NCBI GenBank assembly: GCA_944381365.1
Contig: CALWKW010000001.1
Coordinates: 405,100-469,099, forward strand
DNA from: an uncultured Christensenellaceae bacterium
GTDB taxonomy: Bacteria > Bacillota > Clostridia > Christensenellales > UBA3700
Length of the DNA: 64,000 nt
Reading direction: 5' to 3'
The translations under genes were made by a program, and so were the position numbers. The stretch's first letter is position 1; every line of letters begins with the position of its first letter. The notes beneath the pieces are model-generated. The model was given only the letters and a program-made list of their open reading frames with translations. It had not been told where the DNA came from and ran no database searches. Below, piece after piece: positions 48,147 through 54,279 of the stretch.

Positions 48147-51100
48147 TCAATCGTTTTTAGAGTGTTTTACCGCATCGGCGAGATTTACCGCTACGACCTT
48201 GGATACACCTTTTTCCTGCATCGTAACACCGTACAATCTGTCGGCAAGTTCCATCGTAGGCTTACGGTGAGTGATTACTATAAACTGAGTTTCGTCACTG
48301 AATCTCTTGAGATACTGAGCAAACAATCCTACATTGGCGTCATCGAGAGCCGCTTCGATTTCGTCAAGCACACAGAAAGGCATTGCTTTAAGTCTTAAAA
48401 TCGCAAACAAAATCGCTATTGCGGTCAAAGCTTTTTCTCCGCCGCTCATAAGAGTAATGGACTGAAGCTTTTTGCCGGGAGGCTCTGCCATTATTTCGAT
48501 ACCTGCATCGAGTTCTGTCTGACCTTCTTCAGGAGGCAGCACAACGAGTTTTCCCGTTCCGCCACCAAACAATTCTTTGAATATTACTTCAAAGTTTTTG
48601 TTTATTTTTTCAAATTCGGTAGTAAATTGTTCGAGCATCTGTCTTGACAAATCGTCAATAAGTTTTTTAAGATCAAGCGAGGTTTGCTCGAGGTCGTTTA
48701 TCTGGTCGGCATAAGTCTGATATTCGCTGTCCACTTCTCTGAAAGTCTCGATAGCACTGATATTGACATTGCCCATATCCTTCTGCTCTTTTTGCAAGCG
48801 TCTGATTTCTTGCTTGCATTCCTGATAATCGAAGTCTTCGAGTCTCAGCTTTGCCGCACTCTCATAGTCGAGGTCATACTCTTCTTTTATCTTTGTCTGA
48901 AGAGCTATCATGTTTTCTTCGACTTTTTCAAGTTCGTTCTGGCACTTGACTTTATTTTCGTTGATATAAATCAATGCTCCGCTTATGGTATCTTTTTTGT
49001 TGATAAGCTCTGTGATTGTTTCGCCAAGTTTTATCTTGTATGCGTCAGCTTCTTCAATCTGCTTGCTTATCTCTTCGAGTTGTTTTTGATATTTTTCAGG
49101 CAATTCGACATTCTTGTCGTTTGTGAGATTGAAAATTATGTTTTCCAGATTATGCAAGTTTGCTCTCTGGTCATTCTTTTCGTTTGTCAATGTCTCGACT
49201 TCGCTTGTAAGTCTGTCGATATTTTCCTGATAATTTTCAAGATTCTTAGAAAGAGTGCTGCATTGAACTCTTAAATTGGAAAGTTCTTCGCCCAGCTTGT
49301 CCTTAAGTTGAGATTTCTGGTCAAATTCTTCCTTTGTTTTGTTTGCAAGACTATCTACGCTTTCTCTCAAAGCATTTACATCCTTGCCCTTTTCGCCGAG
49401 TATATTCAAAGCATTCTCAATCGCTTCGAGCTGATTTTCATAATCATGCTTGTTGGATTGACGCTCTTTCATCGACTCGAGATTTTCCTGAATATTTGCC
49501 ACGACTTTATCGAGTTTTCCGTTTTCGGTAGCTACTTGCACCTGACTGTTTTTTATATCCTCGTCATAGCCTTCGAGCTGTGCCTTGTAGTCTTCCAAAT
49601 CCTCTTCTGCTCTCAAAATGCTCTTTTCGAGTTTTTGCTTTTCTTCGGTCATTTGTTTGAGTCTTTGCTCATCTTCTTCGATAAGTCTTTCGTATGACAA
49701 TACTCTTGTGGTAGAAGATTTCTTAGAGCCACCCGTCATCGAACCGGTAGTGCTCAATATATCGCCCTGAAGCGTAACGATTCTTACCGCATATCTGTAT
49801 TTTCTCGCAATCAGTGTCGCATTGTCTATATTATCGACAATAAGAGTTTTTCCCAAAAGACTTGAGAAAATATTATAATAAGCTTTGTCATATTTTATAA
49901 GCTGGCTTGCGACTCCTAAACATCCTTTTTCTCTCAATATAGGAGCAAATTCTCTCTCGAGTTCTCTGGGCTTTACGCTTGTCAAGGGCAAGAAAGTAAG
50001 TCTTCCGTACATTCTTTCTCTAAGATATGCGATGACATATTTTGCGTCTTCTTCGTTGGAAACAACGACATTTTGCAAAGATGCACCCAATGCCATTTCT
50101 ATTGCCACTTCATAATCTTTAGGCACATTGACAAGGTCGCTTACCACGCCTATTATTCTGTCTTTGAGCTCAGGATTGAATTCGGCATCGCCCATCAATG
50201 ACTTAAGAGTAAAGTTGCCGTATTCTTTTCTTAGACTCTTGTTTGTTTCAAGACGCTGTTTGCACACAGACATATCCGCATTGAGCTCGCTTGCTTTGCT
50301 TCTTGCTCTGTCTTGTTCTTCTTCGAGTTGTCTTATTTCGCTGAATACCTCGTTTCTGCTTATAGCAAGTCTGTTGAGGTCATTCTTCATGCTTACGAGA
50401 TTTTTCTCATGCTCTCTTTTTGTTTCCTCATGAGCTTTTATTGCCTTTTCATATCCGTCTATTTCAGTATTGAGTTCTGCAATACGAGTGAGAATAAAGT
50501 CTCTTTGAGTAGTAAGCTTGCTTATATCGACCTTGTTTTCTCCTTCTTGCTGAACGGCATTGAGAAGCTCCTGATTTGCCGATTTGATTTTTTGGTCTCT
50601 GTCTACGATTTCGTTGACGAGAGAGAGATAATTATTGTTGCATTCAGCATATTTTTTGTCAGCCGTCTTTTTGTCTTCGGCTGTCATGTTGTATTGTTCT
50701 TGAAGAGTTTTTAGCTCTTTGGTCTTTTCTTCGAGAGTTTTTTCGCTTTGAGTGAGTCTTTGCAAGCATTGTTGTTTTTGCTCCTGCAAATTGTTGACTC
50801 TCTCTTTCATCGTGAGTCCTTGACCTTTTATATTCTCCGCCTTAACCGCTATATCAGTACGCTTATCTCTCAATTTTGTAATGAGAGTGTCGACATTATG
50901 CTGTTCCATCTGCTTGAGGTCAAGCTCTTTGTTGTTGTCTTCCGCCTCTTTTGTCTTAGCCTCGAGTTCATGAGTAAAGCCATCAAGACGAGTCTGAATT
51001 TTTATCTTTACGCCCTCGTGATTTTCAAACTGATATACATATTCGTTTGCTTCCAAGACTTTGAGTCTGTCTCTCGTCTCGAGATACTTGTGTGCATCTC

Positions 51101-51728
51101 TGCTTTGTCTTTCCAAAAGATTACGCTGTCCTTCGAGACTGTCTTTTGCGATACGGATTTTTTCTATATTGTCATCAGTAGCAGCAAGTTTTCTCTCTGC
51201 TTCTTTCTTGTTGTTTTTGTAAGTCAAAATGCCCGCAGCGTCTTCAAAAATGCTTCGTCTGTTTTCAGGTTTTGCATTGATAATTTCATCGATTCTACCC
51301 TGACCGACAATGCTATAACCATCTCTGCCAAGACCTGTATTTCTGATAAGAGCCTGAATATCCTTCAAACGACAAGGAGTGTTGTTGATAAGATAATTGC
51401 TTTCGCCCGAACGATACAGCTTTCTTGTGATGATTACTTCATCGAGGTCAATATCGAAAATTCGGGAAGTATTGTCAAAAGTCAGCGAAACTTCACAAAA
51501 AGAAAGTTGTTTTCTGATTGCTGTACCATTGAATATTACATCCTGCATGCTTTTACCACGCAAGTTTTTGGCACTCTGTTCGCCAAGCACCCATCTTATG
51601 GCATCGGATACATTGCTTTTGCCGCAACCGTTTGGTCCGACAATGGCTGTAATACCCTCGTTGAGAGGTACTTCGATTTTGTCCGCAAAGGATTTGAAGC
51701 CAAAGGCTTCCATCTTTTTAAACTTCAT
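48147..51728 (-). CDS. smc: chromosome segregation protein SMC
   Basis: The condensin ATPase, 1193 aa. The N-terminal Walker A is GPNGCGKSNVSDAIRWVLG. Two long coiled coils flank a hinge (about 515-660, with IIGVVSDLVNVPKDYEVAIE). The C-terminal half has the ABC signature LMSGGEKALTAIAILFAI and the Walker B FCVLDEIEAALDD. It lies between rnc and ftsY as in Bacillus. scpA and scpB are not in this window. Confidence 0.98.
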   Translation of the reverse strand: MKFKKMEAFGFKSFADKIEVPLNEGITAIVGPNGCGKSNVSDAIRWVLGEQSAKNLRGKSMQDVIFNGTAIRKQLSFCEVSLTFDNTSRIFDIDLDEVIITRKLYRSGESNYLINNTPCRLKDIQALIRNTGLGRDGYSIVGQGRIDEIINAKPENRRSIFEDAAGILTYKNNKKEAERKLAATDDNIEKIRIAKDSLEGQRNLLERQSRDAHKYLETRDRLKVLEANEYVYQFENHEGVKIKIQTRLDGFTHELEAKTKEAEDNNKELDLKQMEQHNVDTLITKLRDKRTDIAVKAENIKGQGLTMKERVNNLQEQKQQCLQRLTQSEKTLEEKTKELKTLQEQYNMTAEDKKTADKKYAECNNNYLSLVNEIVDRDQKIKSANQELLNAVQQEGENKVDISKLTTQRDFILTRIAELNTEIDGYEKAIKAHEETKREHEKNLVSMKNDLNRLAISRNEVFSEIRQLEEEQDRARSKASELNADMSVCKQRLETNKSLRKEYGNFTLKSLMGDAEFNPELKDRIIGVVSDLVNVPKDYEVAIEMALGASLQNVVVSNEEDAKYVIAYLRERMYGRLTFLPLTSVKPRELEREFAPILREKGCLGVASQLIKYDKAYYNIFSSLLGKTLIVDNIDNATLIARKYRYAVRIVTLQGDILSTTGSMTGGSKKSSTTRVLSYERLIEEDEQRLKQMTEEKQKLEKSILRAEEDLEDYKAQLEGYDEDIKNSQVQVATENGKLDKVVANIQENLESMKERQSNKHDYENQLEAIENALNILGEKGKDVNALRESVDSLANKTKEEFDQKSQLKDKLGEELSNLRVQCSTLSKNLENYQENIDRLTSEVETLTNEKNDQRANLHNLENIIFNLTNDKNVELPEKYQKQLEEISKQIEEADAYKIKLGETITELINKKDTISGALIYINENKVKCQNELEKVEENMIALQTKIKEEYDLDYESAAKLRLEDFDYQECKQEIRRLQKEQKDMGNVNISAIETFREVDSEYQTYADQINDLEQTSLDLKKLIDDLSRQMLEQFTTEFEKINKNFEVIFKELFGGGTGKLVVLPPEEGQTELDAGIEIMAEPPGKKLQSITLMSGGEKALTAIAILFAILRLKAMPFCVLDEIEAALDDANVGLFAQYLKRFSDETQFIVITHRKPTMELADRLYGVTMQEKGVSKVVAVNLADAVKHSKND

Positions 51729-51773
51729 AATTCCTCACTTGTTTACCGAATACTACGGCAATTTTACTTATAA

Positions 51774-51802
51774 ATTATATCACAAAGCAAGCATTATTGC
51801 AA
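51774..51802 (-). promoter_or_regulatory. smc promoter
   Basis: On the minus strand there is TTGCAA (51797-51802), a 17-base spacer and TATAAT (51774-51779), with an extended TGA. The rest of the 317-base smc/H1-like gap (51803-51987) shows nothing supportable. Confidence 0.75.
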
Positions 51803-51987
51803 TACTTATTTTATTATAATAATAATTATTTATATAGAAGCACAAATACCGCTATATTCAATCTAATTTTTATGATTAATTCTTTTGACATTTTGATATT
51901 ATTTTAAATATTGTAATGGATAAATCTAAATCCATATTCAAAATGAAAAACAAAAGTAAAAAGTAGACCAATTCGAGCATAGAATAT

Positions 51988-52013
51988 TGACTTTTTTTAT
52001 ACTATAGTATAAA
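51988..52013 (+). promoter_or_regulatory. promoter with 18-bp palindrome before the H1-like gene
   Basis: TTGACT (51988-51993) is followed by the perfect palindrome TTTATACTATAGTATAAA (51996-52013). Its right half supplies a TATAAA -10 at a short 15-base spacing. It may be an operator over the promoter. Confidence 0.5.
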
Positions 52014-52045
52014 CTTAAATCGTATATACATGGAGGTATAACACT

Positions 52046-52549
52046 ATGATCAGCAAAAAACAACAAGAACTGGACCTTAGAAAATGGTATGACAGTGAAG
52101 CAACAGGACACGACACATGCGGCTCTTATGATTATTGTGCATATTGCAACAATGAAGTAGAAAATCCTTGTGATAAAGCTTTTGAAGCCATGATGGCTAG
52201 AGAACCCAAAGAAGAACTTGTGGAGAAAAAGCCTGTAATTATAGAGAAAAAACCCGCAGCCAAGAAGACTGCCGCTAAGAAAGACGGAGAAAAAAAGACT
52301 ACGGCAAAAAAATCTGAAGGCAAAACCACCGCAAAGAAAACCGCTACAAAAAAAGCTACCTCAAAAAAATCTACTGAAATCGAAACTTTGAAGGCTACCG
52401 CAGTAGTAGTACCCGAAACAGAAAAAGCAAAAAAAGCAGCTGCTAAAAAATCAACGACAAAAAAGACCACGGAAAAAAAGACTACTTCTGCTAAGAAAAC
52501 TACAACAAAAAAAGCAGCTACAAAAACAGCCGAAGAAAAAAGCGAATAA
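52046..52549 (+). CDS. H1-like Lys/Ala-rich protein with Cys-rich head, 167 aa
   Basis: Residues 1-60 form a head with His22, Cys25, Cys31, Cys34 and Cys42 (CGSYDYCAYC then NPC), a spacing that could bind zinc. Residues 65-167 are about half Lys with Ala and Thr, in repeats of the type KKTAAKK and TTAKK, like the tails of histone H1, chlamydial Hc2 and AlgP. Such tails bind DNA without sequence specificity. The gene is on the opposite strand between smc and rnc, monocistronic, with a GGAGG site and its own terminator. A nucleoid role is inference; the head is not recognised as a named domain. Confidence 0.75.
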   Translation: MISKKQQELDLRKWYDSEATGHDTCGSYDYCAYCNNEVENPCDKAFEAMMAREPKEELVEKKPVIIEKKPAAKKTAAKKDGEKKTTAKKSEGKTTAKKTATKKATSKKSTEIETLKATAVVVPETEKAKKAAAKKSTTKKTTEKKTTSAKKTTTKKAATKTAEEKSE

Positions 52550-52554
52550 TACAT

Positions 52555-52583
52555 AAAAGCCACTCATTTGAGTGGCTTTTTAT
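52555..52583. terminator. bidirectional terminator between the H1-like gene and rnc
   Basis: Eleven-base stem AAAAGCCACTC/GAGTGGCTTTT with loop ATTT. It is shared by the two convergent genes. Confidence 0.9.
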
Positions 52584-52620
52584 AAACAGAATTTTATGCT
52601 TTTATAAATAATTTATACAT

Positions 52621-53256
52621 CTATTTTTTACTTAGGGCAATCTGTGCACATTTTTGTTGGGCATGTTTTTTGCTGTCGCCTTTTGCCTTTGACACAAATT
52701 TATCGTCTATATAAAGTCCTTCTTCAAAAGTAGGATTATGCTCGGGACCGCTTTTTGACAATTCCTTGAACTCTACTTTTCTTCCTGCAAATTTTTCCAA
52801 AAGCATGGATTTGTAATCTATATGATAGATATTTTTTGCGTTGTCTATCATTTTGTTCAGATGAGACAAAACATATTGTCTCGCAGGCTCTATTCCGCCG
52901 TCAAGATAAATTGCTCCGCAGATAGATTCAAAGATATCCGAATAGGCTTTTTGACTTATTGTGCCATAACCTATACGCAAAAATTTATAATATCCCTTTT
53001 CTTTTACCACCTGAGACAGAGGCTCCATAGACACTATCGCCCCACGCATTTTAGTGAGTACGCCTTCGTCCGCATGAGGATATTTTTTATAAAGTTCGTC
53101 CGCCACGACAAAATCCAATATACTATCCCCTAAATACTCCAATCGTTGATAATCCTCTTCTCCGTACTTATGCGAATAAGAAGAATGAGTAAGAGCCATC
53201 TCCAGCAAAGATTTGTCTTTGAATGTATAGCTGATGAGTCTTTCGAGTTCGTTCAT
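52621..53256 (-). CDS. rnc: ribonuclease III
   Basis: A dsRNA endonuclease for rRNA and mRNA processing. The 211 aa have the catalytic signature QRLEYLGDSILDFVV, a second metal site (DIFESICGAIYLDGG) and a C-terminal dsRBD (about 145-211). It lies 12 bases after plsX; the acpP gene that usually separates the two is missing. Confidence 0.96.
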   Translation of the reverse strand: MNELERLISYTFKDKSLLEMALTHSSYSHKYGEEDYQRLEYLGDSILDFVVADELYKKYPHADEGVLTKMRGAIVSMEPLSQVVKEKGYYKFLRIGYGTISQKAYSDIFESICGAIYLDGGIEPARQYVLSHLNKMIDNAKNIYHIDYKSMLLEKFAGRKVEFKELSKSGPEHNPTFEEGLYIDDKFVSKAKGDSKKHAQQKCAQIALSKK

Positions 53257-53268
53257 TGATACCTCTTT

Positions 53269-54279
53269 TTAAGCGATAGTTTTGTCTTTGAGAGCTTCCT
53301 CGATTTTTTCAGGTAAATTAGCTTTTGTCATTTCGTCAGCTCTCATTATGGCATTTTTGAAAGCAGTGGCATTACTTGCTCCGTGAGCTTTTACTACCAC
53401 CTTTTTTACTCCGAGAAAAACTCCTCCGCCCACACTGTCTGAGGACATGATTTTTTTGAGTTTTCTCAAAGAAGGCTTCAAAAGAAGATAGCCAAGCTTT
53501 GCTCTCAATCCGCCTTGCAAAATATATGATTTTAGCAAAGTAAATATAGCCTTGCCCATACCCTCGGCAGTTTTGAGACACATATTTCCCGCAAAGCCGT
53601 CCGTGACTATTACATCGGCCACTCCCGTAAGAAAATCTCTCGCCTCAATATTTCCTATAAAATTGATATCGGTATTTTTAAGAAGTTCGTGAGCCTCTTT
53701 TGTGAGTGCGTTGCCTTTTTCTTCTTCGGCACCGTTGTTTAACAAAGCGACTTTGGGATATTTTATACCGCAGACTGCTTTCATATAAGCTTCGCCCATT
53801 ATGGCAAATTCTCTCAGCATACTTGCCTTGCAGTCCACATTTGCTCCGCCGTCTACAAGTATAGTATTCTTGTTTTCTTCGATAGTGGGAAGAAGTGGGG
53901 ACAAAGAAGCACGCTGTACTCCGTCAATAAGTTTGACGAGAATGCTGGCACCTACAAGCAAAGCTCCCGTATTTCCTGAAGAAACCATGCCGTCAAACTC
54001 GCCGTTTGCCAGAGCTTTTAATGCCACTACCATAGAAGAGTCTTTTTTTCTTCTTATTGCCATGGTAGGCACATCATCGTTTGTAATAACCTCGGGGGCA
54101 TTGAGAATACTTATTTTTTGCAAATCATAGACTTTATTTTTTAAATAATCGGCAATGACCTTTTCATCGCCGCAAAGCGTAATATGAAGTCCCTCGTTTT
54201 CTTCTACTGCAAGCAAAGCTCCGTCAATAGCACTTTGAGGACACAAATCTCCGCCAAAACAATCCAAAACTATTTTCAT
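53269..54279 (-). CDS. plsX: phosphate acyltransferase PlsX
   Basis: It converts acyl-ACP to acyl-phosphate for phosphatidic acid synthesis. The 336 aa begin KIVLDCFGGDLCPQSAIDGAL and include GALLVGASILVKLIDGVQRA and VIVTDGFAGNMCLKTAEGMG. The order rpmF-plsX-rnc-smc is the usual one. fapR and the fab genes are not here. Confidence 0.96.
   Translation of the reverse strand: MKIVLDCFGGDLCPQSAIDGALLAVEENEGLHITLCGDEKVIADYLKNKVYDLQKISILNAPEVITNDDVPTMAIRRKKDSSMVVALKALANGEFDGMVSSGNTGALLVGASILVKLIDGVQRASLSPLLPTIEENKNTILVDGGANVDCKASMLREFAIMGEAYMKAVCGIKYPKVALLNNGAEEEKGNALTKEAHELLKNTDINFIGNIEARDFLTGVADVIVTDGFAGNMCLKTAEGMGKAIFTLLKSYILQGGLRAKLGYLLLKPSLRKLKKIMSSDSVGGGVFLGVKKVVVKAHGASNATAFKNAIMRADEMTKANLPEKIEEALKDKTIA

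Follow-up and report, generated by a model that had tools for sequence, protein, structure and literature searches.

A four-cysteine head domain joined to a histone H1-like tail: a possible two-part tether encoded between smc and rnc

The stretch of DNA analysed here, referred to as the window, comprises 64,000 nucleotides, and the gene of interest occupies positions 52046..52549 of its + strand, from an ATG start through 167 codons to the stop. It is flanked by two genes of the - strand, one at 48147..51728, taken to be smc, and one at 52621..53256, taken to be rnc, the gene of ribonuclease III. An earlier note on this DNA placed the gene divergently between the two; this holds for smc, the starts on opposite strands being 317 bases apart, but not for rnc, which converges on the gene tail to tail with 71 bases between the two stops on opposite strands. 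The gap towards rnc contains a stem-loop (52555..52580, given without a strand) that was found by a scan to be terminator-like on the - strand only. The gene is single-copy in its own genome, where the whole protein gave one match at E 0.001 and the tail alone one match at E 1, and no Rfam family was found within 51500-53300.

The start is preceded by the ribosome-binding site GGAGG at 52032..52036 (+ strand), and the same motif was found at most 25 bases 5' of the gene in all 11 genus loci. The promoter-like site TTGACT-N17-TAAACT (51987..52015, + strand) is weak by itself, with 9 of 12 matches, and is one of nine such sites in 1 kb, against 3.9 in shuffles. Its layout, TTGAC[A/T]-N17-TAAA[A/C]T, is kept ahead of the gene in 9 of the 11 genus loci, the pattern having been picked after the genus alignment had been inspected. 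The -10 side of this site is overlapped by the palindrome TTATACTATAGTATAA (window 51997-52012), which could be an operator; near-palindromes were read from the alignment at the same place in three further loci (L020-L022).

The open reading frame was confirmed, and with it the earlier description of a Cys-rich head followed by an H1-like tail: the product contains four cysteines in its N-terminal part and a Lys/Ala/Thr tail, and the charge at pH 7 is -4.4 for residues 1-55 and +19.8 for residues 56-167. The tail (residues 60-167; 52223..52546, + strand) includes 35 Lys, 23 Thr and 18 Ala and, read from the sequence, consists mostly of [AT]KK doublets; 30 of the 36 Lys residues after residue 51 belong to KK doublets. 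The 15 KK doublets of the tail compare with 11.0 (sd 2.3) over 10,000 shuffles; KKK is absent from the tail and was likewise absent in 403 of the 10,000 shuffles. No DNA repeat array was found by Tandem Repeats Finder over the tail region. The sole Pfam match of note for the whole protein was HC2 (PF07382), at 30.8 bits under a cut-off of 40, and NF038053 gave 27.9 against a cut-off of 80. The native tail scored 28.7 bits against HC2 and none of the shuffled tails, five in number only, matched, which points to a resemblance that lies in the arrangement of the residues as well as in their composition.

Inside the tail lies the non-basic motif ETLKATAVVVPE (52382..52417, + strand), identical in all four long-tailed members of the genus. 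Six of its twelve codons vary silently among these four, the protein sequence remaining unchanged within a fast-changing Lys tail, and the motif may be a short binding motif.

The head domain (residues 1-51; 52046..52198, + strand) was modelled by AlphaFold as three helices, at residues 4-20, 29-33 and 41-52, with block means of 93-96 pLDDT over residues 1-50. It carries Cys25, Cys31, Cys34 and Cys42 in the spacing C-x5-C-x2-C-x7-C (52118..52171, + strand), which is a probable metal site, and His22. Among 55 aligned heads Q6, K13, S17, D23 and the four cysteines are invariant, Asp23 sitting just before the first cysteine of the site, and D10, W14, G26, P41, A43 and A45 are kept at 90% or more. 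All four cysteines, as expected of a zinc-binding Cys4 domain, were retained in 76/76 distinct proteins collected, a count that is partly circular since the search profile itself contains the cysteines. The corresponding count for His22 is not circular: histidine occupies that position in 8 of the 76, and the earlier proposal that it is a metal ligand is not supported.

Searches of the head against known families gave no relative. With the head alone no family was listed in Pfam or NCBIfam at E 10, PHROGs gave no match at E 1, and the 13 matches to solved structures at E up to 1 had a best value of 0.15, over 15 residues. The comparison of the head model with the PDB by Foldseek, a weak test for a helical model of 62 residues, reached a best E of 5.0, with none of six matches at E 0.001; VIA-align of the same small helical model gave Z of at least 2 for 0/22 supplied chains, and a viral structure library gave a best E of 3.6. 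Being obtained with so small and helical a model, this lack of a fold match is weak evidence for a new fold. Six diverse relatives were without a match above cut-off in Pfam and NCBIfam, and the window protein was without a match in PADLOC, which was run with whole proteins only. A PADLOC match of L031 to Cas3d (E 0.011) was dismissed as chance, and L114 gave TnpV (E 0.13, 12.7 bits, cut-off 27) and the DUF2002 model (E 0.13, 12.4 bits, cut-off 171), both under cut-off. Among the titles listed in literature searches none deals with this protein or its head. The head is a real domain family for which Pfam, NCBIfam, PHROGs and the solved structures have no description, in agreement with the earlier note, which knew of no named family with this combination.

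Of 21 pairs within clades of the genus, 12 allowed dN/dS of the head to be computed, with values of 0 to 0.043, and the remaining nine were saturated at silent sites; of the eight pairs that match the window with a short-tailed member of the genus, one was computable, with a value of 0.145. These values indicate a strongly conserved head under purifying selection. With the window head as query, 18 of 40 near relatives matched, own genome included, and the genus accounts for 12 of these matches out of 17 genomes. Its other five genomes gave no head (completeness 95, 90, 92, 69 and 93%), so the gene is probably not essential, although the genome searches began with a loose first look and individual absences are not proof. 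The presence of the head in 12/17 genus genomes, its low dN/dS, the promoter layout in 9/11 loci and the HC2 score of the tail, with 0/5 shuffles matching, show that the gene is real and more than chance.

The profile search with the head that had been proposed in the earlier note recovered the domain family well beyond the genus. Of 396 genomes of the order, 101 matched a 55-row profile, and these belong to 28 of the 142 genera; a 17-row profile matched 102 of the 396, one of which (L113) was judged false. A class-wide sample of 391 genomes gave five matches, all inside the order. Among 348 genomes sampled across the phylum, the own genome matched, together with two short stretches judged to be chance: L158, covering 26 columns in an open frame of 36 aa, and L159, covering 23 columns in one of 30 aa, a stop being present in one of the two. 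No convincing head outside the order was found in these two samples. The named relatives are titled uncultured Christensenella, Christensenellaceae and Clostridia, Candidatus Alloclostridium and Candidatus Caccalectryoclostridium, of which, in the NCBI taxonomy, the last belongs to Christensenellales and Alloclostridium to Clostridia incertae sedis. From these titles the order is probably Christensenellales. A viral origin of the head was considered and dropped, no viral contig encoding a relative having been confirmed among 76 pattern-matching stretches, and a second search having yielded no stretch. Five loci were set aside: L113 (G146), which by eye encodes a different, longer Cys protein, and L109-L112, with weak or partial head matches. 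All five are outside alignment A2 and outside the 76 distinct proteins; alignment A2 also omits L118 and, from each of L095 and L124, a single near-duplicate head.

The part that follows the head is far less constant. The protein set was taken from the fetched loci (60 of the order, 23 named and the window) and does not include every match; among its 76 distinct proteins, 41 end in a Lys/Ala/Thr tail, 19 in an unnamed globular domain and 16 in other sequence, the first class being defined, by thresholds of our own, as a C-terminal part of at least 15 residues of which more than half are Lys, Ala or Thr. The globular partner, of about 116 residues, is C-terminal in its 19 head proteins. It was delimited at L031:3158-3577, lies also within L123:11697-12734, L090:11719-12894, L098:10958-13237 and L106:12728-14473, and recurs in other proteins of the same stretches, in some of which a hydrophobic segment was noted by eye at the N-terminus. 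Three proteins that combine head and globular domain (L123, L100 and L114) had nothing over cut-off in Pfam or NCBIfam, and the model of L031, built on an alignment without depth in the globular domain, had a mean pLDDT of 69 and a best Foldseek E of 0.83.

Tandem neighbouring head genes occur in two genomes of one genus (L124:7913-9061 and L095:4714-5877), and in each pair one gene has a Lys/Ala tail and the other the globular domain; L118 contains two heads within one protein. In the genus of the window the part after the head falls into two length classes among the 12 members, 15-21 residues (eight members) and 118-140 residues (four members). With duplicates counted the set holds 81 proteins, of which 67 have a head of net negative charge and 73 a net positive part behind it. 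Near-tailless heads, with 0 to 8 residues after the head, were found in L039, L075, L076 and L096; the first of these (L039:1330-1527) has a basic extension N-terminal to the head and almost nothing after it, and in the other three the head itself is net basic. A net acidic C-terminal part is present in L101, L108, L119, L120 and L128, four of the five having a short basic end. As a separate observation, the head proteins of genus g19 (L107, L108, L119, L120 and L128) share a leader like MWN..PLELLK.MP and a basic end [KR]I[RK]IA.A[RK]; C-terminal to the head, the sequence is net acidic in four of these five.

By these comparisons the C-termini are exchanged between relatives while the head is kept. 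Selection therefore preserves the head, and the long tail of H1-like type, present in only 4/12 genus members, is confined to a single group of close relatives. The reading of the protein as a DNA-compacting one is thereby weakened: the H1-like tail itself stands, but most relatives in the genus have short ends, and others in the order have the globular domain.

The order smc, gene, rnc was found in the window and in L020-L023, the gene being divergent from smc and facing rnc, and in L026 only the smc side is visible. In five loci (L024, L025, L027, L028 and L030) the gene comes after rnc in the same direction and no smc occurs in the stretch available, which in the first four loci runs on for about 8-10 kb beyond the gene and in L030 stops right behind it. 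In total, rnc adjoins the gene in 10/10 assessable genus loci and smc in 6/10; L029, which begins at the gene with neither neighbour visible, is not among them. In G002, G005 and G012 rnc is followed by other genes, and no head gene was found next to it; in G018, G019 and G023, from two other genera of the same family, rnc and smc are adjacent, with the head gene located on a different contig. Ten window neighbours, smc and rnc included, were sought in the flanks of 58 loci outside the genus and none was found, the flanks reaching up to about 8 kb and some being ended by contig ends, and five of the loci being weak or false head matches.

Two further observations concern the region around rnc. 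In G022 and G017, of the same family, a gene that by eye resembles leucine-rich-repeat genes replaces the head gene in the rnc-smc gap (L147:2184-2978 and L149:2176-3018). Downstream of rnc, two different genes that by eye encode surface proteins are preceded by a stretch of 309 columns (L144:2221-2528 and L145:2209-2516), 94% identical and with short inverted-repeat matches, which may represent a leader common to both or a mobile cassette.

With frequencies of 6/10 inside the genus against 0/58 outside it, the link to smc is a local, genus-level feature and a poor guide to function. The placement that the earlier note found suggestive is therefore real among close relatives, which commonly keep the smc/rnc position, and was not found beyond them in the loci covered; the evidence that would have told against the note is split in the same way, the cysteines being conserved in relatives and the gene lying in unrelated places outside the genus. 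This bears on the possibility that the product is a true H1/Hc2-like compacting protein acting with the Smc complex, on which the head would hold it unless it served for dimerisation. Such a role would account for the divergent position beside smc and for an Hc2 score that five shuffled tails do not reproduce; against it are the score under the Pfam cut-off, the four long tails among 12 genus members, the failure to find smc near the gene in 58 loci outside the genus, the steadier presence of rnc within it, and a normal HU of about 90 aa encoded separately in the same genome (G000:C1:485783-486049). It is considered quite unlikely.

With rnc rather than smc as the steady neighbour, the protein could be associated with RNA or ribosomes, the basic tail binding RNA. 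All ten genus loci with that side visible have rnc next to the gene, and of the five in which the gene follows rnc in the same direction two are without a promoter-like site, so that read-through from rnc may occur there. Nine of 11 genus copies, however, have a promoter-like site of their own, rnc was not found near the gene in the 58 outside loci, and lysine-repeat tails are reported mainly from proteins that bind DNA (PMC11229371). An RNA-associated role thus appears unlikely.

No neighbourhood common across families was found in 60 loci. The widest cluster besides the head, of ABC-transporter type by eye, occurs in 10 of the 60, and a two-component pair (by eye) in 11, seven of them in family f3, at about 1-6 kb and in both orientations; no inference was made from either. 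Genes of redox type, again by eye, are an anaerobic ribonucleotide reductase in 6/60 loci and a flavodiiron-like protein in 3/60, at about 2-6 kb and in both orientations, too few to be counted as support for a redox switch. In such a switch redox-active zinc or an iron-sulfur cluster would be bound by the four cysteines, and once the metal was lost the tail or the globular domain would bind a different target, a logic likened to that of WhiB. In the WhiB-like iron-sulfur proteins, too, a basic part comes after a small helical domain with four cysteines, a likeness in outline only; their cysteine spacing differs from that of the head, and they are not known outside Actinobacteria and their phages. 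WhiB (PF02467) was not listed for the protein or the head at E 10, HMMER filters dropping most matches above about 0.1, and no WhiB chain was among the 13 solved-structure matches at E 1. The invariance of the four cysteines and Asp23 in 55 aligned heads and the variation of the effector parts between relatives would suit a switch, against which stand the missing WhiB match, the lack of a fold match and the lack of a conserved neighbourhood; this reading is held to be unlikely.

Comparison with known systems places the protein outside each of them. Hc2 proteins are not known to have a Cys4 head. Hc2 (chlamydial HctB and the Hc2-like proteins of Bordetella and Burkholderia; PF07382/NF038053) shares a Lys-rich tail of variable length, but the present protein scores under the cut-offs, and its conservation lies in the head, its variability in the tail; the size of Hc2 varies via repeat units (PMC2848022). 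Mycobacterial HupB and Streptomyces HupS combine, as here, a folded N-terminal part with a long lysine-repeat tail (PMC5676037, PMC11229371), but their head is HU, whereas the window protein is without an HU match, and plain HU is encoded separately; PF00216 (HU) was not among the two Pfam families listed at E 10, a threshold at which HMMER filters drop most matches above about 0.1. The HupB tail is indispensable for nucleoid association (PMC5676037), and in HupS 38/43 Lys of the tail are in KK doublets and acetylation cuts DNA affinity about twofold (PMC11229371). Actinobacterial topoisomerase I also bears lysine repeats (PMC7398561).

AlgP and PhaF of Pseudomonas and MLDS of Rhodococcus have the same layout, an N-terminal part and a DNA-binding H1-like C-terminal tail (PMC9239181, PMC5504291). 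Their tails are KPAA or PAKKA repeats, which were not seen on reading the window tail (no profile was used), and they have other N-terminal domains where the present protein has a Cys4 head. By analogy with them the protein could tether a polyphosphate or other storage granule at one end to DNA at the other. AlgP is located on polyphosphate granules and requires its KPAA tail for granule spacing, which is abolished by removal of the C-terminus (PMC9239181), and MLDS ties lipid droplets to DNA via PAKKA motifs (PMC5504291). Beyond the shared two-part layout the head is without any Pfam match, and a granule tether is very unlikely. The protein may work like HupB, AlgP/PhaF or MLDS by analogy; no relationship was found, and by the tests run it is not a member of these groups.

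The preferred reading, to which a probability of roughly one half is assigned, is that of a two-part tether made of a metal-held docking head and a tail that binds DNA or another polyanion nonspecifically. The head (residues 1-51) would fold round one metal ion held by the four cysteines, most likely zinc, and would be the specific part, docking on a protein partner or pairing with itself. The tail (residues 60-167, about +20 in charge) would be disordered and would bind, whatever its sequence, a polymer of negative charge, most likely the DNA of the chromosome. We infer that a metal is bound, that the tail is disordered and has DNA as its ligand, and that the head serves for docking; zinc is preferred to an iron-sulfur cluster on general grounds only. 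The relatives live without oxygen, so the site may instead hold an iron-sulfur cluster. As ordinary HU is encoded in the same genome, the head-tail protein is not the sole nucleoid protein, and it would be a minor nucleoid-associated protein beside HU rather than the main compacting protein. The recurrence of the head in the order, its invariant cysteines and low dN/dS, its confident model, the basic tail in KK doublets, the split of charge between head and tail and the tandem gene pairs with different C-termini speak for such a tether, as do the published proteins of the same layout whose tails bind DNA (MLDS, HupB and AlgP). The near-tailless relatives, the acidic C-terminal parts, the restriction of the long tail to 4/12 genus members and the five genus genomes without a head match speak against it.

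More tentatively, and with less confidence than the tether itself, it may be speculated that the head is an order-specific adaptor domain fitted to H1-like tails, to a basic globular domain or to short basic ends, the products being nucleoid or polyanion tethers under metal or redox control. Known carriers of lysine-repeat tails are HU, actinobacterial topoisomerase I and granule or droplet proteins, with a different head each time. In the present case the head is undescribed in the libraries searched and is retained under strong selection while its C-terminal partner is swapped. It offers a clean case for studying how H1-like tails are directed in bacteria, within an order represented here by named relatives from metagenome assemblies, and, should the head prove to be a metal or redox sensor, that signal would be linked to the nucleoid.
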